Assembly: GCA_002841975.1 (NCBI GenBank)
Contig: PHBQ01000002.1
Span: forward strand, 1-64,000
Direction: 5' to 3'
Length of the DNA stretch: 64,000 bases
From: Candidatus Cloacimonetes bacterium HGW-Cloacimonetes-1
GTDB lineage: Bacteria; Cloacimonadota; Cloacimonadia; Cloacimonadales; Cloacimonadaceae
Part shown: piece by piece, positions 12,059 to 50,176 of the stretch
Numbering within the stretch: position 1 is the stretch's first letter
Layout: each line of letters begins with the position of its first letter
Translations under genes and position numbers: made by a program
The notes under the pieces: generated by a model
What the model was told of the DNA's origin: nothing
The model's database searches: none
Seen by the model: the letters and a program-made list of their open reading frames with translations, nothing else

Positions 12059-13677
12059 ATCAAAATCTCCACCGTAGTTTCATTGAGCTGTTCATAACGT
12101 TTTCTGGTAAATTTATTTGTGATCGACATGATGATTTTGAGGCCTTTTCCGCGCTCATTCATCATTTCATCTTCAAATTCATAGGGCTGTTCAAAGCTGA
12201 ACTCCACGTCCGGTGGTTCCCATAGTATGCCTTTGTCCCAGAACCGAATAGACAGAGTACCATCGTGAATCACGAATTCCAACACAATGATAGAGTCTTC
12301 ACTATAGTTATAGCCATATTGGATAATGTTATTCAAAAATTCATCTACCACGAGTTCTACTTTGGCAGCGAGCCCACTGTCTTGAGTCCAGTCTATGATA
12401 ATCTGCTCACATTCTTTGGCGATAATACCCACTTCTTTGAGCGCTGCACGCAGCACAAAAGTGAAGTGTCTCGTTTCGTTGCCGGCGGTCAGTTCCTTTG
12501 TACCGAAGTGCTTCTTATCCGAATGTGTTTTAAAGGAGAAGAGGGTAAAATCATCCGTAGAAATCTCATATTGGTGTTGGAGTAAATGATGCTTGATTTT
12601 GTAAGAAAGATTGATGCAACTATCAATAGGGATGTGGTTGTTGAGAACATCAATCAAACCATCCAGCCCAAATTGTTCATCCTGCGGGTTGTTGCATTCA
12701 TAGATACCGTCTGTATAGAGCAAATAGATATTGTTTTCATTCAGAGGAATACTGTCCATATCATGCTCATAGTATATAGTACGCGGCATCCAGCCCAAGG
12801 GCACTGAACCTTTTTTATCGTGAACAACAGCAGTATTGGTGGTGGAGTCAATGATGATTAAAGGTGGATGGCCGGCATTGAGAAAACGGAATTCATTGAT
12901 CTCTAGATCGAGTACACCCATCAGCATGGTCATATAATTATTGTGCGTAAACAGCTCTGAATAAAGCTTTTCATTCAGTTTTGTAAAGAGTTGTGCCAGC
13001 GTGGCAGTATCTTTCTCGGTCTCGACCATGATCTTGATAATGGATTTGATCGCTGTCATCAAGAGAGCTGCTTGCACTCCATGGCCGGAGATATCCCCGA
13101 TATATACTACATACCGATTATCATCAATCTTGATGCGGTCAAAGAGGTCACCACCGACCAGATCCGAAGCTTGATAATTGGAAGAGAATACAATATTTTT
13201 GTCGATATAAATCCATTTGGGCAAAATCGCCTCCTGGATGTTGGCGGCGGTTCGAAGGTCTTTGCGCAGATCATCGAGGAGCTGTAGATTCTTTTTTTCC
13301 GTACGTTTTAGTGATATTGTTTTATTTACCCTAGCCAGAAGTTCCAGCTTGGACACCGGCTTTTTGATATAGTCACTGGAGCCGGATTCAAAGCCATTAT
13401 TGACCGAGACATCATCTTGATTTGCAGTTACGAGGATTACGGGGAGATCGGGATCTGCTATTTGCATCAAACGACATGTTTCATAACCGTCCATACCCTT
13501 TCCCATTTGAACATCCAGCAATACCAGATCAAAGACGCTTTGTTTTATCAACTCCAGCGCTTCTTCTCCACTGTGACAGGATTCTGTGGTATAGCCGTTC
13601 TTGTGAAGGATATTTGTGATTATCTTGATAATTACATCGTCATCATCTACAACCAGTATGCGAGCATCTTGATTCAC
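12055..13677 (-). CDS. Response regulator with PP2C (SpoIIE-type) phosphatase and RsbW-like ATPase domains
   Basis: This 540-residue protein has three modules. Residues 1-120 are a receiver domain (acidic pair D11/D12, phosphoacceptor D55 in LLDVQM, VTAN and KKP motifs). After a helical linker, about 165-380 is a PP2C/SpoIIE phosphatase (YIGDISGHGVQAALLM and LYTDGIYECNN metal-binding motifs). About 405-540 is an HATPase_c_2 domain of the RsbW anti-sigma kinase type (VDEFLNNIIQYGY, then NERGKGLKII). Related proteins control partner-switching pathways via STAS anti-sigma antagonists; none is encoded nearby. Translation begins at GTG 13677, preceded by a strong GAGGTGGT. The sensor kinase upstream is the likely phosphodonor. 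The stop overlaps the start of the GT2 gene. Confidence 0.9.
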   Translation of the reverse strand: MNQDARILVVDDDDVIIKIITNILHKNGYTTESCHSGEEALELIKQSVFDLVLLDVQMGKGMDGYETCRLMQIADPDLPVILVTANQDDVSVNNGFESGSSDYIKKPVSKLELLARVNKTISLKRTEKKNLQLLDDLRKDLRTAANIQEAILPKWIYIDKNIVFSSNYQASDLVGGDLFDRIKIDDNRYVVYIGDISGHGVQAALLMTAIKSIIKIMVETEKDTATLAQLFTKLNEKLYSELFTHNNYMTMLMGVLDLEINEFRFLNAGHPPLIIIDSTTNTAVVHDKKGSVPLGWMPRTIYYEHDMDSIPLNENNIYLLYTDGIYECNNPQDEQFGLDGLIDVLNNHIPIDSCINLSYKIKHHLLQHQYEISTDDFTLFSFKTHSDKKHFGTKELTAGNETRHFTFVLRAALKEVGIIAKECEQIIIDWTQDSGLAAKVELVVDEFLNNIIQYGYNYSEDSIIVLEFVIHDGTLSIRFWDKGILWEPPDVEFSFEQPYEFEDEMMNERGKGLKIIMSITNKFTRKRYEQLNETTVEILI

Positions 13678-41897: not shown

Positions 41898-42563
41898 ATG
41901 GATGCAATACCGATTTTGACGCTAAAGAGACTGCCACAATACCTGGATGTATTGTATCAGTTCAAAAAGGCTGGACTCAAGGTAGTATCAGCTACCAAGA
42001 TCGCTGTGTTTACAGATATTCACATGACACAAGTGCGTAAAGACCTGGCTTATACAGGTGTGGTCGGTGTTCCCAAGGTCGGTCACAAGATAGATGAACT
42101 GATTACGGCGATCGAGCAGTGTCTCAATTGGAATGATACTTCATCATGCTTTCTGGCAGGGGTCGGGCATCTGGGCTCTGCACTCCTGGGTTATCAAGAG
42201 TTGCAAAACAAGGGACTGAAAGTGGTCGCTGCTTTTGATACCAATCCGGCTCTGATCGATACTACCATCCACGGTATTCCTGTCTATAGTATGGATAAAT
42301 TTGAGAACTTAGCATCCCGCCTCCACATCCATATCGGAATTCTGACGGTACCGGCAGATTACGCCCAAGCAGTGGCAGACCTTATGATCGCAAACGGCAT
42401 CGTGGCAATCTGGAATTTTACCGCCACAAGGTTACAAACTGACGCGGATATCATTGTAGAAAATGTCGATATGTCGACTTCACTGGCAGTATTGTCCCGG
42501 CGTTTGGCAGAAAAAATGCACAAACCTCTTTCCAAACTGCAAGACTCTCCAGAGGCGTTATAG
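41898..42563 (+). CDS. rex: Redox-sensing transcriptional repressor Rex
   Basis: The 221-residue protein has the N-terminal winged helix of Rex (YLDVLYQFKKAG, TDIHMTQVRKDLAY) and a Rossmann NAD(H)-binding domain (FLAGVGHLGSALLGY, ending AAFDTNPA). The C-terminal domain-swapped helix LAVLSRRLAEKM follows. Rex dimers bind DNA when NAD+ predominates and release it when NADH rises. Length and motifs match the family (about 210). It lies 105 bp upstream of the hydrogenase operon on the same strand, so NADH-responsive control of hydrogen production is expected. The promoter carries an inverted repeat (41854-41871) which could be its own operator. The ATG has AGAGGAG upstream. Confidence 0.95.
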   Translation: MDAIPILTLKRLPQYLDVLYQFKKAGLKVVSATKIAVFTDIHMTQVRKDLAYTGVVGVPKVGHKIDELITAIEQCLNWNDTSSCFLAGVGHLGSALLGYQELQNKGLKVVAAFDTNPALIDTTIHGIPVYSMDKFENLASRLHIHIGILTVPADYAQAVADLMIANGIVAIWNFTATRLQTDADIIVENVDMSTSLAVLSRRLAEKMHKPLSKLQDSPEAL

Positions 42564-42668: not shown

Positions 42669-43169
42669 ATGGATTCCGCAAACAATGCAGCACGCAGCTT
42701 TAACAAAGTCATTGAAATACTGGATCGCTACGATCGCAATGCATCCAAGATTATCCCGATCTTGCAGTCAGTGCAAGAAGAGTATCGCTACCTCCCTCAG
42801 GAAGTACTCACTTTTGTAGCAACTTCCCTGAACGTCTCTCCTGCCAGATTGTATGGTGTGGCAACGTTCTACAGCCACTTTTCACTGGAGCCCAAGGGCA
42901 AGCATATCCTCAAAATGTGTGATGGTACAGCCTGCCACGTGCGAGGATCCAGTGCCGTTATCGATGCACTGCGGGACAAACTGGGACTCAGTGCCAAAAA
43001 GATTACGACAGATGATATGCTCTTTACTTTTGAAACCGTCTCTTGCCTGGGAGCTTGCGGTTTGGCACCCGTACTGGTCGTTGATGAAGCTATTCACGGG
43101 CAAGTGACCCCGGAAGTTGCCTTACAACTCTTAGACGAGATAGTTCAAAAGGAGCAGCAACATGCATAA
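42669..43169 (+). CDS. hydC: NAD-dependent hydrogenase subunit HydC (NuoE-like)
   Basis: The 166-residue protein is a NuoE-like thioredoxin-fold [2Fe-2S] subunit. Cysteines are visible in MCDGTACHVRG and in SCLGACGLAPVL, the four ligands of the cluster. In HydABC-type hydrogenases this subunit couples the FMN-containing HydB to the H-cluster subunit and is required for electron bifurcation. The helical N-terminal part (IIPILQSVQEEYRYLPQEVL) is typical. It is the first gene of a tightly spaced operon (hydC, hydB, hydA, ferredoxin, sensory hydrogenase, phosphatase). Its stop overlaps hydB by 8 bp. Regulation by the upstream Rex is inferred from position. Confidence 0.93.
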   Translation: MDSANNAARSFNKVIEILDRYDRNASKIIPILQSVQEEYRYLPQEVLTFVATSLNVSPARLYGVATFYSHFSLEPKGKHILKMCDGTACHVRGSSAVIDALRDKLGLSAKKITTDDMLFTFETVSCLGACGLAPVLVVDEAIHGQVTPEVALQLLDEIVQKEQQHA

Positions 43170-45045
43170 TCTGGATCAAATTCGCGAAAACTACAGTATC
43201 GCCCGTAATCATTGTGCCAAGCGCATCGTTGTCTGCGCCGGAACCGGATGCATCGCCAATGGTGCCCTCAAAGTATTTGATCAGCTTAAAAACACGATCG
43301 CCATGAAAGGTCTGGATGTCATCGTCGAACTGCATCACGAAGATCACGCGGATCACGATGTCTATATCTCCGGTAGCGGTTGCCAGGGCTTTTGCCAGGT
43401 GGGTCCACTCGTGACCATCGAACCTGCCGGAATCCTCTATACCCACGTCAAACCCACAGATGCGGAAGAGATTGTACTCCAATCCATCCTCGAGGATGAA
43501 GTGGTTGAGCGTTTGCTGTACCACGATCCCACAGATGGCACCATCTATCACGGTACTCACGATATCCCCTTTTATGCCCAGCAATCTCGAACCGCCCTCA
43601 AAGAATGCGGCTTGATCGATCCCGAGAATATTCACGAGTACATCGCTCAGGGTGGCTATTTTGCAGCTCGTGATGCTTTTACAAAGATGAATGATACGGA
43701 GCTCTGCCAATTGTTTATGGCTTCCGGCTTACGTGGTCGGGGTGGTGGAGGCTTTTCCACCGGCTTGAAATGGGACTTGACCCGCAAGCAAATTAACGAG
43801 AAGAAATATGTGGTCTGTAATGGTGATGAGGGCGATCCCGGTGCCTTTATGGATCGTAGTATCCTGGAAGGGAACCCCCATTCTGTAGTGGAAGGAATGC
43901 TGATTGCCGCCCGTGCAATCGGTGCCAATGAAGGCTATGTCTATGTGCGCATGGAATATCCTCTGGCCTGTGCCAGAATCCGTACCGCAATCAAGACCGC
44001 CACTGAATATGGCATCTTGGGCGATAACGTGTTCGGTAGCGGTTCCTCCTTCCACATCCAAGTCATGGAAGGTGCCGGAGCTTTTGTCTGTGGTGAGGAA
44101 ACAGCCCTGCTGGCCTCAATCGAAGGTAAACGCGGGATGCCCAATCCAAAGCCACCATTCCCTGCGGAATCCGGTCTGTTTGGAAAACCGACAGTGATCA
44201 ATAATGTAGAAACTCTTGCCATGGTCCCCATAGTACTCCGTAAGGGTGTAGAGGCTTTTCGTGCCGTAGGAACAGAGAAATCTCCGGGCACCAAGACTTT
44301 CGCCCTCACGGGGCACGTTGCCAATACCGGACTGATCGAAGTGCCGTTTGGCACCACTATTCGCAAGATCGTCTTTGATATTGGTGGTGGTGTGATCGAT
44401 AAGAACGGCAAGATCAATAATGATGCATTCAAGGCTGTCCAAATCGGTGGTCCATCCGGTGGATGTTTGACTCGCGAACATCTCGATATTCCTCTGGACT
44501 TTGATTCTCTTACCTCGATCGGTGCCATGGTTGGTTCCGGTGGTCTGGTCGTGATGAATGACAGTACTTGCATGGTCAAGATTGCCAAGTATTTCATGAC
44601 CTTTACGCAGCATGAATCCTGCGGGAAATGTGTACCCTGCCGCGAAGGAACCAGACAGATGCTGGAAATGCTGGAAGATATCACCATCGGTGAAGCTACC
44701 GAAGAGACCCTGAATCTGCTGGAAGAAACCGGACATGTGGTAAAGCTTACCTCCCTGTGTGGACTGGGCAAATCTGCACCCAGCCCGGTGCTTTCCACTC
44801 TGCGCTATTTCCGTGACGAGTATGAAGCCCACGTCAAATCCAAGTATTGCCCCACCCGTAGCTGTAAGGAACTGACTGCTATCACGATCAATCCGGATCT
44901 TTGCAAGGGTTGTACCCTCTGTAAACGTAGCTGTCCCGTCGGAGCCATCACCGGTGACGTGAAGCATCATCATACTATAGATCCTACCAAGTGCATCAAA
45001 TGCGGTGCCTGCATCGAAGTCTGCAAATTTAAGGCTATATTTTAG
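43162..45045 (+). CDS. hydB: NAD-dependent hydrogenase subunit HydB (NuoF-like, FMN)
   Basis: The 627-residue protein starts with a thioredoxin-like [2Fe-2S] domain (CAGTGCIANGAL; GCQGFCQVGP). The NuoF core follows: GLRGRGGGGFSTGLKW and CNGDEGDPGAFMDRSI bind NAD(H) and FMN, then an SLBB domain, and SCGKCVPCREGTRQM with a [4Fe-4S] cluster. The C-terminus carries two ferredoxin-type [4Fe-4S] motifs (CKGCTLCKRSCPVGAI, CIKCGACIEVC). This architecture equals HydB of Thermotoga-type electron-bifurcating hydrogenases, which oxidise NADH and reduced ferredoxin to make H2. It starts within hydC and is followed by hydA after 9 bp. Confidence 0.94.
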   Translation: MHNLDQIRENYSIARNHCAKRIVVCAGTGCIANGALKVFDQLKNTIAMKGLDVIVELHHEDHADHDVYISGSGCQGFCQVGPLVTIEPAGILYTHVKPTDAEEIVLQSILEDEVVERLLYHDPTDGTIYHGTHDIPFYAQQSRTALKECGLIDPENIHEYIAQGGYFAARDAFTKMNDTELCQLFMASGLRGRGGGGFSTGLKWDLTRKQINEKKYVVCNGDEGDPGAFMDRSILEGNPHSVVEGMLIAARAIGANEGYVYVRMEYPLACARIRTAIKTATEYGILGDNVFGSGSSFHIQVMEGAGAFVCGEETALLASIEGKRGMPNPKPPFPAESGLFGKPTVINNVETLAMVPIVLRKGVEAFRAVGTEKSPGTKTFALTGHVANTGLIEVPFGTTIRKIVFDIGGGVIDKNGKINNDAFKAVQIGGPSGGCLTREHLDIPLDFDSLTSIGAMVGSGGLVVMNDSTCMVKIAKYFMTFTQHESCGKCVPCREGTRQMLEMLEDITIGEATEETLNLLEETGHVVKLTSLCGLGKSAPSPVLSTLRYFRDEYEAHVKSKYCPTRSCKELTAITINPDLCKGCTLCKRSCPVGAITGDVKHHHTIDPTKCIKCGACIEVCKFKAIF

Positions 45046-45054
45046 GAGAATACC

Positions 45055-47067
45055 ATGAAAAGCGATAAAATCATATACATCAACGATCGCCCCATAGTAT
45101 GGGATGGGGAAACCAATGTCCTGTCTCTGGCACGTAAGGCACATATCGAAATACCTACCTTTTGTTATCACTCGGAGCTCAGTGTTTACGGTGCATGCCG
45201 TCTGTGCCTGGTCGAAATCGAAGGCAGAGGACTGGTCACATCCTGCTCCACAATTCCTTTTGAAGGCATGAAAGTCTATACCCATACCGAGCAAATCATC
45301 AAGATGCGGAAGACCATAGTCGAGATGCTGCTTGCCAATCATGATCAAGCCTGCCCTACCTGCTCCCGTTCCAACGATTGCAAACTGCGGGATCTTTCCA
45401 CCAAGCTCGGAATAGACAAAATCCGCTATCGCAAGACCAGACAGCCCAAAGCCATGGACATGATGTCCGATTGCCTAGTCCGTGATCCCAATAAATGTGT
45501 GTTGTGCGGTGACTGCGTCCGTTTCTGCTCCGAAGTCCAGGGCATTGGTGCCATCGACTTTGCGCATCGTGGTGAAGGCGTGATTGTGACTCCTGCGTAT
45601 GGCAAGAGCCTTGCTCATGTGGATTGCGTCAATTGCGGTCAATGCGCAGCAGTATGCCCCACCGGAGCCATCGTCGTGAAATCCCAGAGCGAGCAAGTAT
45701 GGCAGCAAGTACACAATAAAACCAAAACCGTGGTCGCTCAAGTAGCTCCGGCTGTGCGTGTGGCACTGGGTGAGATGTTTAACCTGCCTTCCGGCGAAAT
45801 TACCACCGGCAAAATGGTGGCGGCACTCCGCATGATCGGATTTAATAAAGTCTTTGATACCTCCTATGCAGCCGATCTCACGGTCATCGAAGAGGCAAAT
45901 GAACTCCTGAGTCGCAAAACCAAGGGTGAAAACCTGCCAATCTTCACATCTTGCTGCCCTGCCTGGGTCAAGTTTGCCGAACAGTCCTACCCCGGACTGT
46001 TGAACAATCTCTCCTCTTGCCGATCACCACAGCAGATGTTTGGCGCATTGGCCAAAGCCAGACTGCCACAAACTCTGGGCGTGACAAAGGAAGATCTCTG
46101 TGTAGTCGCAATCATGCCATGTACTGCCAAGAAATACGAAGCAAACCGCAAAGAATTTACTACCGATGGTATAGCGGATGTCGATTTCGTGCTCACTACT
46201 CAGGAACTCGGCAAGATGATCAAGGAAGCCGGGATAGATTTCAACTCTCTGGAACCGGAATCAATGGACTTACCGATGGGCTTTGCATCGGGAGCCGGTG
46301 TAATCTTTGGTAACAGTGGCGGAGTCAGTGAAGCCGTGCTACGTTACGCTGCTGATAAACTGCAAATCCCCATGCCGGAAAGCATCGTATTGCAAGAAGT
46401 GCGTGGCACTTCCGGCATCCGGGAAGCGGAAGTCGAGACCGCGGTAGGAACACTTCGCATGGCAGTCGTGCATGGTCTGAAGAACGCCGCAATACTGGCA
46501 GACCAAGTAGTAAACGGAACTGCCAATTACGATGTGATCGAAGTAATGGCATGCCCCGGGGGCTGTATCGGCGGAGCTGGTCAACCCATCGCTTGCGAGT
46601 CCAACACTCGTCAACAGCGTAACCAAGCCATTTATAATGCAGACAAGATCATGCCTCTGCATCGGGCACAGGACAATCCCTTTATCGACGAGATCTATCA
46701 GACTCTCTTACATGAACCAAACAGCCACAAGGCACATGAAATGCTGCACACCCAATACCGCAGCCGCAAACGCATCGAGGACGAGGAAACATCCTTTTCT
46801 GCTCCTTCCAAAGAAGAGCGTTGCAAGATCCGCGTCTGCATCGGGACCAGTTGTTTCCTGCGCGGAGCCCAGGAGATCCTGGCTGCTACTCTCAAAACTG
46901 TGGAAGACAATGCTTGGCACAACCGCTTTGACATTGCTGCCACTTTCTGCACCGAACTGTGCGACTTAGGGCCGACCATCGTGATCAATGGCGAAATAAT
47001 CCACCGTGCCCGGCTTGAAGACGTGAAATCCAGAATCCAATCCGAGGCTTCCCTGCGGGAGAAATAG
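45055..47067 (+). CDS. hydA: [FeFe]-hydrogenase catalytic subunit HydA (group A)
   Basis: The 670-residue enzyme begins with a plant-type [2Fe-2S] domain (CRLCLVEIEG and partners). A His-containing [4Fe-4S] motif (HDQACPTCSRSNDC) and two ferredoxin clusters (CVLCGDCVRFCSEVQG, CVNCGQCAAVCP) come next. The H-cluster motifs are complete and canonical: L1 FTSCCPAWVKF, L2 MPCTAKKYE, L3 EVMACPGGCIGGAGQP. A C-terminal thioredoxin-like [2Fe-2S] domain (VCIGTSCFLRGAQ; CTELCDLGP) is added, as in Thermotoga HydA. With HydB and HydC it should bifurcate electrons from NADH and ferredoxin to protons. SD AGGAG precedes the ATG. The next gene follows with no gap. Confidence 0.96.
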   Translation: MKSDKIIYINDRPIVWDGETNVLSLARKAHIEIPTFCYHSELSVYGACRLCLVEIEGRGLVTSCSTIPFEGMKVYTHTEQIIKMRKTIVEMLLANHDQACPTCSRSNDCKLRDLSTKLGIDKIRYRKTRQPKAMDMMSDCLVRDPNKCVLCGDCVRFCSEVQGIGAIDFAHRGEGVIVTPAYGKSLAHVDCVNCGQCAAVCPTGAIVVKSQSEQVWQQVHNKTKTVVAQVAPAVRVALGEMFNLPSGEITTGKMVAALRMIGFNKVFDTSYAADLTVIEEANELLSRKTKGENLPIFTSCCPAWVKFAEQSYPGLLNNLSSCRSPQQMFGALAKARLPQTLGVTKEDLCVVAIMPCTAKKYEANRKEFTTDGIADVDFVLTTQELGKMIKEAGIDFNSLEPESMDLPMGFASGAGVIFGNSGGVSEAVLRYAADKLQIPMPESIVLQEVRGTSGIREAEVETAVGTLRMAVVHGLKNAAILADQVVNGTANYDVIEVMACPGGCIGGAGQPIACESNTRQQRNQAIYNADKIMPLHRAQDNPFIDEIYQTLLHEPNSHKAHEMLHTQYRSRKRIEDEETSFSAPSKEERCKIRVCIGTSCFLRGAQEILAATLKTVEDNAWHNRFDIAATFCTELCDLGPTIVINGEIIHRARLEDVKSRIQSEASLREK

Positions 47068-47310
47068 ATGAAACGCATTCTGATCTGCATGGGTAGTTCC
47101 TGCTTTGCCAGGGAGAATAGAGAAAACTTGCGTATTATCGAGGATTATCTCAAATCTCACGGACTCACCGACAGTGTGCATATCGATGGATCGCTTTGCA
47201 TTGGTGAATGCAGCAAGGGACCGAACCTCGTGATCGACGGAACCATGTATCATGGTGTGGATCCCGAAAAACTCAATGAAATATTGGATAAAGAACTGAT
47301 AGCCATATGA
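47068..47310 (+). CDS. Small thioredoxin-like [2Fe-2S] ferredoxin
   Basis: The 80-residue protein has four cysteines, C7, C12, C44 and C48, in the spacing of NuoE-type thioredoxin-like [2Fe-2S] ferredoxins (CMGSSCFAR; LCIGECSKGP). It begins at the base after the hydA stop and its TGA overlaps the start of the sensory hydrogenase gene by 4 nt (ATGA). It probably shuttles electrons between the hydrogenase subunits or to the sensory enzyme. In Thermoanaerobacterium hfs-type operons a small subunit of this kind is also found near the sensory hydrogenase. Confidence 0.9.
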   Translation: MKRILICMGSSCFARENRENLRIIEDYLKSHGLTDSVHIDGSLCIGECSKGPNLVIDGTMYHGVDPEKLNEILDKELIAI

Positions 47311-48998
47311 ATAGACTCAAACCGATTTACACCGAAAAGACCGAATGCCAAGACTGCTACAAGTGTGTACGTGCTTGTCCGGTCAAGGCCATCCGCGTGG
47401 TGAGTGGCAGTGCGGAAGTAATCCCGGAAGCTTGCATCCTGTGTGGACATTGCACGGAAGTGTGTCCGGTGGGTGCCAAAAAGACCAGAGATGACCTCTA
47501 TTTGGCAAAAGAGCTATTGCAGAATAAGCCCCGGGTTTATGCTTCAATAGCCCCCTCCTATGTCACAGAATTTGGCGGGCTTATCTCCGGAAAGCTGATT
47601 GCTGCACTGAAGCAACTGGGTTTTGCCGGTGTGTCGGAAACAGCCTTGGGGGCGCAAGTGGTATCGGCTGCTTGTGCCCAATTGCTGAGCCGGAATGCCA
47701 ATAAGGTCATGATCTCCTCTGCCTGCCCCTCGGTGGTGCATTTGATCGAGCAATATTATCCGCATCTCACGGGATTTATCACTCCCCTGATGTCCCCCTT
47801 GCGAGCGCATGCCACCATGCTCAAGAAAGAGTATGGCGAGGATATTGGCATCGTCTTCTTTGGTCCTTGCATCGCCAAAAAGACCGAAACCGGAGACGAC
47901 TTTGACGTGGCTTTGACCTTTGCCGATCTCCGACGCTGGTTTACCATTGAGGGAGTGGACTGGAGCAACATCAACTCCAGGGAAACCTTTGTTCCCACAT
48001 CTGCGGAAGAGGGAGGGCTCTATCCCATCGATGGCGGCATGTGCGATGGCATCAAAGCCTGCCAACCTGCCACGGATATCCACTACATGTTTTTCAGCGG
48101 GATCGACGAGATCATGGAAGCATTTAGGGATATCGACAAAACTCCTTATTCCAAACCGATCTTTATCGAAGCCCTCGCCTGTCCGGGCGGATGTATCAAT
48201 GGTCCGGCAGTCAGTTCCCCCGGTGCCACTGCCAAGAAACGTTACAAAGTGCTAACCGATACTCCTCCAGCCAGCAGCATTCACGATGCTGTCACACTTT
48301 CCATCGGCAGTGACTATGCTGCCCGAACCATCATCAAGAAAGCTCACAGCAATGCCGAAATCGGTGCCGCATTACTGCGCATCAGCAAGAAAAGACGTGA
48401 AGACGAGCTCAATTGCGGTGGCTGTGGATACGATACTTGCCGGGATTTTGCCGCTGCACTTCTGGAAGAAAAAGCCGAACCCGCCATGTGCGTATCCTAC
48501 TTGAGAAAGCTGACTCAAAACAAGGCAGCAGCTTTGATCAAGGCAATGCCCTCCGGAGTGGTGATCGTGGATGAAAACCTCAAAATCATCGAATCAAATG
48601 CCCGCTTCATCGAGATCATCGGCGGCGATGCCTCGATCGTTTCCGAAGCTGATCCGGATCTGGAAGGTGCGTACCTGGAACGGCTGATCTCGTTTCACGA
48701 ACTCTTTGCCACAGCCCTAAAGGATGGCAGCGAAGTTCTGATCCGGGACATTCATCACATGGGCAAAATCCTACGCATCACGATCTTTTCGATCCAGCCC
48801 CACCAGGTAGTGGGAGGCATTTTGCAGGATATCACAGAACCGGTAATCCAGCGCGAGCAGATAATCCAAAAAGCCGCTGAAGTAATGAAGAAAAACCTCA
48901 CAACCGTGCAGCAAATAGCCTTTCTTCTGGGTGAAAATGCCGCCGATAGCGAAGTGCTGCTGAATAGCATCATCCAGTCCTTTTCCGGCAAGGAGTAA
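47307..48998 (+). CDS. HydS-like sensory [FeFe]-hydrogenase with PAS domain
   Basis: The 563-residue protein has two N-terminal [4Fe-4S] motifs (CQDCYKCVRACPVKAI, CILCGHCTEVCPVGA), an H-cluster domain, a further Fe-S motif (CGGCGYDTCRDF) and a C-terminal PAS domain (about 410-520). H-cluster ligands persist in L1 SSACPSV, L2 GPCIAKK and L3 EALACPGGCINGP. In L1 the proton-transfer cysteine (first C of TSCCP) is alanine, as in group C/HydS sensory hydrogenases. It should bind H2 and signal through PAS rather than turn over fast. The PP2C phosphatase gene begins 2 bp downstream and is the likely output. Overlap with the ferredoxin gene is 4 bp. Confidence 0.92.
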   Translation: MNRLKPIYTEKTECQDCYKCVRACPVKAIRVVSGSAEVIPEACILCGHCTEVCPVGAKKTRDDLYLAKELLQNKPRVYASIAPSYVTEFGGLISGKLIAALKQLGFAGVSETALGAQVVSAACAQLLSRNANKVMISSACPSVVHLIEQYYPHLTGFITPLMSPLRAHATMLKKEYGEDIGIVFFGPCIAKKTETGDDFDVALTFADLRRWFTIEGVDWSNINSRETFVPTSAEEGGLYPIDGGMCDGIKACQPATDIHYMFFSGIDEIMEAFRDIDKTPYSKPIFIEALACPGGCINGPAVSSPGATAKKRYKVLTDTPPASSIHDAVTLSIGSDYAARTIIKKAHSNAEIGAALLRISKKRREDELNCGGCGYDTCRDFAAALLEEKAEPAMCVSYLRKLTQNKAAALIKAMPSGVVIVDENLKIIESNARFIEIIGGDASIVSEADPDLEGAYLERLISFHELFATALKDGSEVLIRDIHHMGKILRITIFSIQPHQVVGGILQDITEPVIQREQIIQKAAEVMKKNLTTVQQIAFLLGENAADSEVLLNSIIQSFSGKE

Positions 48999-49000
48999 GG

Positions 49001-50176
49001 ATGGATCAGTATTTTCTGGAAGTCGATTACTATCAGCTCAATAAAAACAAGCAGATTGCCTGTGGTGACAGCTTCCTGAGCCGCAAGTTTGACGACCGCA
49101 TCGTGGTAGTCCTGGCGGATGGATTGGGGAGCGGGATCAAGGCCAGCGTGCTATCCACTCTCACGACCACCATGGCAGCCAGCTTCATTACCAGCCGCAT
49201 GGACATTCGCAGAGCCGCCGAAGTGATCCTGGATACTCTGCCCGTCTGCTCCTATCGCAAGATTGGCTATAGCACATTTACGATCATCGATGCCAAACTA
49301 AGCGGTGAAGTGTCAATCATCGAGCACGACAATCCTCCTTATGCCCTGATCCGCAAGGGTAAGATTATCCCGGTAGTCAAACAGGATATACCCCTCAAAA
49401 CCGAGCGTAAAAGCCATCTTTACTATTCGGAATTTACCATGCTGCCGGAAGATCGGATCGTGTTTTATTCCGATGGCGTCACCCAAGCCGGGATGGGCTT
49501 GCCCCATTTGCCACTGGGATGGCAGGAAAGCGGAGTGGAAGCATATCTGCGTGAACTGCTCCACAACTCTCCCCAGCTTTCTGCGGGACAGATCTCCAAA
49601 CGCACTGCCCTCAAAGCCAGAGAATATGATGGTGGTAAAGCCGCAGACGACATTAGCTGTGCCGCGCTCTATCTGCGCAACCCCCGCCGCACTCTCCTCA
49701 TGACGGGACCACCCTACAAAAAGGAACACGATGCCGTACTGGCGAGTATTGCCAATGGTTTTACCGGCACCAAGATCCTCTGTGGCGGAACTACTGCTGC
49801 AATCTTGTCTCGCGAACTGGGCATCCCCCTCAAAGTAAACTTATCTGAAGTCCGCCTCGATAGTGAAATCCCGCCTACTGCCATGATGGAGGGATTTGAT
49901 CTGGTCACGGAAGGCACCATCACGCTCAGCCGTGCCTTACGCATTTTGGAGCAAGATCCCGCGCTCGAAACGCTGTCCGACAATGCGGTAAACCGCCTCG
50001 TGAAACTGCTACTTGATAGCGACATCATCGAGTGCGTGGTAGGTACCAAGATCAACGATGCGCATCAGGATCCGGCACTACCCAAAGACCTGGAAATCCG
50101 CCGTAACCTCATGAAACACATCTGTAATGCCCTTGAAACCAAATATATGAAAAAGACCAATCTAGTGTTTGTGTAG
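49001..50176 (+). CDS. PP2C (SpoIIE-type) serine phosphatase of the hydrogenase operon
   Basis: The 391-residue protein has a PP2C/SpoIIE domain (about 20-220) with the metal-binding motifs VVLADGLGSGIKASVLSTL and VFYSDGVTQAGMG and the C-terminal GGKAADDISCAALYL. The remaining 170 residues hold no known domain; a CGGTTAAILSREL segment with strand-turn-helix pattern may be regulatory. No signal or membrane segment is present. SpoIIE-type enzymes dephosphorylate STAS-domain anti-sigma antagonists. Placed 2 bp after a sensory hydrogenase, it probably converts H2 status into a phosphorylation signal, as proposed for HydS-associated phosphatases. No STAS protein is encoded here. No clear terminator follows. 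Confidence 0.9.
   Translation: MDQYFLEVDYYQLNKNKQIACGDSFLSRKFDDRIVVVLADGLGSGIKASVLSTLTTTMAASFITSRMDIRRAAEVILDTLPVCSYRKIGYSTFTIIDAKLSGEVSIIEHDNPPYALIRKGKIIPVVKQDIPLKTERKSHLYYSEFTMLPEDRIVFYSDGVTQAGMGLPHLPLGWQESGVEAYLRELLHNSPQLSAGQISKRTALKAREYDGGKAADDISCAALYLRNPRRTLLMTGPPYKKEHDAVLASIANGFTGTKILCGGTTAAILSRELGIPLKVNLSEVRLDSEIPPTAMMEGFDLVTEGTITLSRALRILEQDPALETLSDNAVNRLVKLLLDSDIIECVVGTKINDAHQDPALPKDLEIRRNLMKHICNALETKYMKKTNLVFV

Follow-up and report, generated by a model that had tools for sequence, protein, structure and literature searches.

A phosphatase-linked, putatively H2-sensing [FeFe] hydrogenase at the end of a bifurcating hydrogenase cluster in Cloacimonadota

The last two genes of a bifurcating hydrogenase cluster in Candidatus Cloacimonetes bacterium HGW-Cloacimonetes-1, phylum Cloacimonadota, encode, judging from their sequences, a phosphatase-linked sensory [FeFe] hydrogenase (HydS) and its phosphatase (PP2C). 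The pair is of the HydDB [FeFe] group C3 type, a kind already published and named there 'phosphatase-linked (putative)' (PMC5037454). It is likely that an H2 or redox signal, transmitted by the PAS helix of HydS, sets the activity of the phosphatase and thereby adjusts hydrogenase and fermentation genes. The sensing of H2 by fermenting anaerobes is an open question, group C hydrogenases being 'putative' sensors without a known output; an earlier note on this DNA, which took group C/HydS proteins as known H2 sensors, overstated what the literature says. The data presented here narrow that output, in that a PAS partner accompanies the phosphatase almost without exception in more than 12 phyla, the docking element is probably the C-terminal helix of the PAS domain, and a STAS target is unlikely in general.

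The stretch analysed, called the window hereafter, comprises 64,000 nucleotides (GCA_002841975.1, contig PHBQ01000002.1, 1-64,000 of the forward strand). From the ORF list, Pfam and NCBIfam the gene order is rex-hydC-hydB-hydA-trx80-hydS-pp2C, all on the + strand, and the same order is kept in relatives of the same family. The first gene, rex (41898..42563), encodes a redox-sensing transcriptional repressor (NCBIfam NF003994, 253 bits, cut-off 130). It is followed by hydC (42669..43169), for the NuoE-like [2Fe-2S] subunit of the bifurcating hydrogenase (PF01257, E 4.1e-50), by hydB (43162..45045), for the NuoF-like FMN/NADH subunit (PF01512, PF10589 and NuoF family models), and by hydA (45055..47067), for the catalytic subunit, a group A bifurcating-type [FeFe] hydrogenase (PF02906, E 9.5e-96; PF02256) that reaches 748 bits with NF040763 FeFe_hydrog_A6, slightly below the cut-off of 765. 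The small gene trx80 (47068..47310), coding for an 80-residue thioredoxin-like [2Fe-2S] protein (PF01257, E 5.7e-9), overlaps with its 3' end the start of hydS by 4 nt. The hydS gene (47307..48998, 563 residues) was recognised by Fe_hyd_lg_C (Pfam, E 1.6e-46), by FeS PF04060 at residues 368-396 and by its alignment residues, and pp2C (49001..50176, 391 residues; SpoIIE, Pfam E 8.6e-17) starts 2 bp after it. The coordinates and spacing that the earlier note had given for this pair were exact, and its location inside a bifurcating hydrogenase operon is borne out by the Pfam and NCBIfam assignments of the genes from rex to trx80. The trx80 gene and the C-terminal half of the phosphatase were both absent from that note. 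Scans for sigma-70 promoters and terminators gave no excess of matches over chance.

HydS consists of an N-terminus with two [4Fe-4S] motifs, the H-cluster domain (residues 76-300), a PAS domain (about 401-520) and a C-terminal helix (about 521-560). Its L1 motif reads S-S-A139-C140-P, where A139 occupies the position of CpI C299, the proton-transfer cysteine; the replacement of this cysteine by alanine, with the other H-cluster cysteines kept, had been correctly noticed before. The ligands C140, C188, C292 and C296 are present in 100 of 100 full-length HydS rows aligned. Alanine is the commonest residue at the C299 position (67 of the 100 rows, which include near-duplicates) and has been reported in about 43% of class sequences (PMC10055695), and on this comparison it is a common feature of the class and no sign of lost activity. 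At the three positions where sensory enzymes are reported to differ, C299, M353 and M497 (PMC10055695), HydS has A139, G186 and L290. Judged by these residues, HydS has an intact H-cluster site with a sensory-type second sphere. The protein scores below the curated models of groups A/B (TIGR02512, 104 bits against a cut-off of 406; TIGR04105, 195 against 450). A cluster motif CX2CX4CX16C (C370-C395) lies near the C-terminus and is found in all 100 rows aligned. No PAS model of Pfam matched HydS itself at E<=0.001, so that the PAS domain claimed in the earlier note stands by homology and not by a direct match: residues from about 401 to 557 are homologous to stand-alone PAS proteins located at the same gene position, one of which scores over the Pfam PAS cut-off.

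These features were compared with those of known sensory hydrogenases. TmHydS of Thermotoga maritima shares with the Cloacimonadota protein the PAS domain, the change of C299 to Ala (A131) and the conserved H-cluster ligands (PMC10055695), and the two differ at the M497 equivalent, which is Ser in TmHydS and Leu in the Cloacimonadota HydS. TamHydS, of group D, carries the same CX2CX4CX16C motif (PMC8163306, PMC13104023) but, unlike the Cloacimonadota HydS, no PAS domain. The likeness to group C3 is that of a PAS-bearing sensory-type hydrogenase adjoining a Ser/Thr phosphatase gene. The four ligating cysteines, the altered second sphere, the C-terminal [4Fe-4S] motif followed by PAS, the adjoining phosphatase gene and the non-A/B character are all present, and nothing excludes membership, the placement being made from residues, domains, gene context and family models.

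Species genomes were searched for relatives of the phosphatase, and the loci analysed were the best 80 of at least 578, a sample that leans to similar ones. HydS is encoded directly upstream of PP2C and on the same strand in all 80 of these best relatives' loci, and the association is therefore far from chance; the lack of co-occurrence in related genomes, which the earlier note had named as refuting the coupling, was looked for and did not arise. The gap between hydS and pp2C has a median of about 6 nt across the relatives' loci. More than 12 phyla are spanned by the 80 best loci, the record names including Cloacimonadota, Acidobacteriota, Planctomycetota, Spirochaetota, Bacteroidota, Verrucomicrobia, Hydrogenedentes, Nitrospirae, Riflebacteria, Lentisphaerae, Synergistaceae, Alphaproteobacteria, Gastranaerophilales, Fibrobacter and others. 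Among 125 Cloacimonadota genomes, HydS orthologues on a contig that continues are followed by the phosphatase, PAS-only loci apart. One Cloacimonadota genome has an apparently broken hydS with an intact phosphatase gene behind it. When recurrent neighbours in the 80 loci were considered as candidates for the target, only hydrogenase subunits, maturase candidates and small local clusters were found. The HydF- and radical-SAM-like maturase candidates near the module were named from sequence.

The phosphatase is formed by two domains. The first, residues 1-223 (49001..49669), is a SpoIIE-type PP2C domain, as the earlier note had proposed, since it matches PF07228 and has all the metal ligands; at least 97% of 132 PP2C rows keep the aspartates D23, D40, D158, D216 and D217. 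Among solved sequences, SpoIIE phosphatase domains come closest, and the predicted model (AF2 pLDDT 87) matches 3pu9 in Foldseek with E 7e-14. The second domain, residues 224-391 (49670..50173), is assigned to no family and contains CGGTT, TEG and N-x-A-H-Q motifs. It is an alpha/beta domain of about 165 residues, predicted with high confidence (AF2 pLDDT 90) and conserved across 63 diverse members. It gave no match in Pfam, no significant match among PDB sequences and nothing at E<=0.001 among PDB folds with Foldseek; fold searches in the PDB and viral libraries returned generic Rossmann-like matches only. From the list of weak fold matches methylglyoxal synthase 1vmd was picked (Foldseek E 0.011, probability 0.97, TM about 0.4). 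The phosphate loop of this enzyme, GTGTT, can be aligned with CGGTT along just 26 columns (hhalign local P 9e-5), and the global alignment is poor; a kinship with methylglyoxal synthase is suggestive, a lead from the loop and no assignment. No report of this domain was found in the open-access literature searched. This strongly conserved domain is the obvious place to seek the target or a second ligand.

A path from signal to output can be drawn from these elements. Trx80 and HydS would form the sensing unit, in which the H-cluster reads H2, or a redox state set by H2. The signal would reach the PAS domain by way of the C-terminal cluster region, and the C-terminal helix of this domain may contact the switch helices of the phosphatase and so set phosphatase activity. 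Such a control would resemble that exerted by the linker helices of RsbU/RsbP-type phosphatases, here acting across two proteins; control of PPM phosphatases through linker helices by PAS and other sensors has been demonstrated for RsbU and suggested as a general principle (PMC12143880). The Cloacimonadota enzyme shares with RsbU, RsbP and SpoIIE the catalytic domain and the metal ligands, and presumably the sensor-helix-phosphatase logic, but its sensor is a separate protein, it has an extra C-terminal alpha/beta domain and a STAS target is unsupported as a rule. The C-terminal domain would bind the substrate or a phosphorylated small ligand, and the dephosphorylated target, as a rule probably no STAS anti-anti-sigma factor, would adjust the hydrogenase and fermentation genes. 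Against this path, no experiment is known to us in which the phosphatase of any group C3 pair responded to H2. Rex might report NADH in parallel, an input that is plausible because rex is the first gene of the cluster. The NADH input had been put forward in the earlier note and keeps this support from gene position, but a canonical Rex operator is absent: TTGTTAAN4TTAACAA, allowing up to 3 mismatches, had no match in the whole window (3.3 expected by chance), and a looser comparison of the regions upstream of rex and hydC gave nothing convincing.

The phosphatase could instead act in partner switching, like RsbU and SpoIIE, by dephosphorylating an RsbV/SpoIIAA-like STAS protein and so releasing a sigma factor. 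This reading, which we consider unlikely, draws on the catalytic domain, nearest to the SpoIIE and RsbX phosphatases, and on the STAS proteins of the own genome, located at C80:5966 (adjoining a receiver-HATPase protein), C90:29546 and C89:5443 (contig and position). The operon itself encodes no STAS partner, as previously stated, and these three proteins came from the search of the rest of the genome. A STAS substrate together with an RsbW-type kinase is found in the own genome but not as a general rule across 50 module-bearing genomes, which are metagenome-derived and may be incompletely assembled. Six of the 50 lack any match to the STAS model TIGR00377, and several others have only weak matches, some in long ORFs. 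A strong stand-alone STAS protein is lacking in five of five alphaproteobacterial module genomes tested, and in these five the HATPase_c_2 matches lie in ORFs of 450-480 residues or are absent, leaving no kinase of RsbW size. Since these alphaproteobacterial genomes lack both components, STAS/RsbW would be no general readout, unless the target differs by lineage or the assemblies are incomplete. Moreover, a STAS or RsbW gene is never a recurrent neighbour in the 80 loci, and three other SpoIIE-domain phosphatases of the own genome could serve its STAS proteins. On these sequence comparisons a STAS protein is unlikely as the general target; we found no report of evidence against a universal STAS target in the open-access literature searched. 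Of the earlier proposal, the core, in which a putative H2 sensor of HydS type is coupled to the phosphatase, is supported by gene adjacency and by the intact H-cluster and metal ligands, and the STAS/RsbW readout does not hold as a general rule.

Six genomes were found in which the gene before the phosphatase encodes a PAS protein of about 170 residues without hydrogenase, three from Cloacimonadota and three among 11 positive Bacteroidota genomes. The three Bacteroidota genomes carry trx80-PAS-pp2C; a search with Fe_hyd_lg_C found no match anywhere in them, and no recognisable hydrogenase gene lies around the module. The PAS-only proteins and HydS share the PAS domain and the C-terminal helix. 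Few parts of HydS are as conserved as this helix, in which Q535, G542 and E543 are invariant, at maximum information. The PAS domain with its helix is probably the docking part facing the phosphatase, because the stand-ins without hydrogenase retain the helix. A tree of 59 phosphatases requires at least 2 changes of partner type, and in every locus checked the phosphatase travels with a PAS-bearing partner. As the module occurs in three genomes in which no [FeFe] hydrogenase was found, it can serve in something other than H2 sensing. We found no report of this PAS-only variant without [FeFe] hydrogenase in the open-access literature searched, and the genomes that carry it are a natural control separating H2 sensing from redox sensing.

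The same three Bacteroidota genomes count against the H2-sensor reading and in favour of another, in which the main role of HydS is slow catalysis or electron delivery and the phosphatase responds to redox via Trx80 and PAS, not to H2. A trx80-type gene is usually present (it immediately precedes hydS in 63 of 74 testable loci). That HydS could be catalytic, since TmHydS turns over H2, also counts against the H2-sensor reading. However, nearly all members keep the hydrogenase domain with every H-cluster ligand, and another [FeFe] hydrogenase gene is found in the stretch at 63 of 77 testable loci; we regard this catalytic or electron-delivering role, with a redox-driven phosphatase, as unlikely. 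Sensing of H2, or of a redox state that H2 sets, is still the reading that we prefer. A broader scheme, speculative and rather unlikely, would treat the phosphatase as a two-input switch, in which H2 or redox state is signalled by the PAS partner and the C-terminal domain, through its CGGTT loop, binds a phosphorylated metabolite or the phospho-target. Trx80-PAS-PP2C would then serve generally for redox control of a Ser/Thr phosphatase with a non-STAS target, a system that an [FeFe] hydrogenase would have joined or left at least twice.

Genetic and expression studies have tied similar pairs to hydrogenase and ethanol metabolism. In the hfs operon of Thermoanaerobacterium, HfsB is a PAS hydrogenase and HfsC a serine-phosphatase homologue; deletion of hfsA or hfsB leads to higher ethanol yield and adhE transcript, whereas deletion of hfsC or hfsD does not (PMC5707799, PMC11837493). 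The different outcomes of sensor loss and phosphatase loss would fit a sensor that may restrain the output. In a T. thermosaccharolyticum hfsABCD deletion, however, overexpression of hfsD was enough to bring back the phenotype in the absence of the phosphatase (PMC11837493), a result that also counts against the H2-sensor reading. In R. albus, hydS shares a transcript with a phosphatase gene, the cluster responds to H2, and Greening et al. (2019) described HydS with a phosphatase subunit and advanced the same feedback idea (PMC6776011). Like the Cloacimonadota pair, both systems combine a PAS hydrogenase with a serine phosphatase, but they are paired with a ferredoxin-type hydrogenase (HfsD/HydA2), whereas the Cloacimonadota pair closes a rex-hydCBA bifurcating operon.

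It is unlikely that the phosphatase antagonises the RsbW-like kinases encoded with a group D HydS on contig C47 of the own genome, so that one target would be under a kinase arm and an opposing phosphatase arm, each driven by a sensory hydrogenase. The C47 cluster (DRTGG - HATPase - group D HydS - DRTGG - PHP - hydC - HATPase - [2Fe-2S] - hydB - hydC - hydB - hydA) recurs, partially or wholly, in other phosphatase-bearing Cloacimonadota, but the kinase was found in just 20 of 47 genomes searched, all 47 phosphatase-bearing, and group D type HydS also occurs in genomes without the phosphatase. As each occurs without the other, neither the group D set nor the phosphatase needs the other, and the group D kinase was rejected as an obligate partner on the count of 20 in 47. 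On C47 the group D type HydS is flanked on one side by a small gene for an RsbW-like ATPase and on the other by the DRTGG/PHP genes. A further hydA is located on contig C44 of the same genome.

In several relatives the position of HydS before the phosphatase is occupied by PAS-only proteins of about 170 aa, as seen at the Cloacimonadota loci L055, L056 and L057 and, in Bacteroidota, at L181-L183 and L191; the three PAS-only Bacteroidota genomes of L181-L183 gave no match to [FeFe] hydrogenase. Tandem HydS-phosphatase pairs, two per locus, are found in Riflebacteria and Marinifilum (L118, L128, L131). Other Cloacimonadota carry methyl-accepting chemotaxis signalling domains fused to [FeFe] hydrogenase domains (L083:6403-8178 and L084:4344-6638), and these fusions resemble the C2 class of HydDB. 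In the Cloacimonadota genome G035 hydS is broken up over several frames (L079:7638-9933), with trx80 and pp2C intact, and the split gene is possibly a pseudogene or an assembly error.

Contig C47 of the own genome holds another bifurcating hydrogenase cluster (L051:6278-16640), where a group D type HydS is accompanied by duplicated hydC and hydB-like genes, two HATPase proteins, and DRTGG and PHP domain proteins. Within the window, at 12073-13125 on the minus strand, a SpoIIE phosphatase domain and a HATPase_c_2 domain are combined in one protein of 543 aa.
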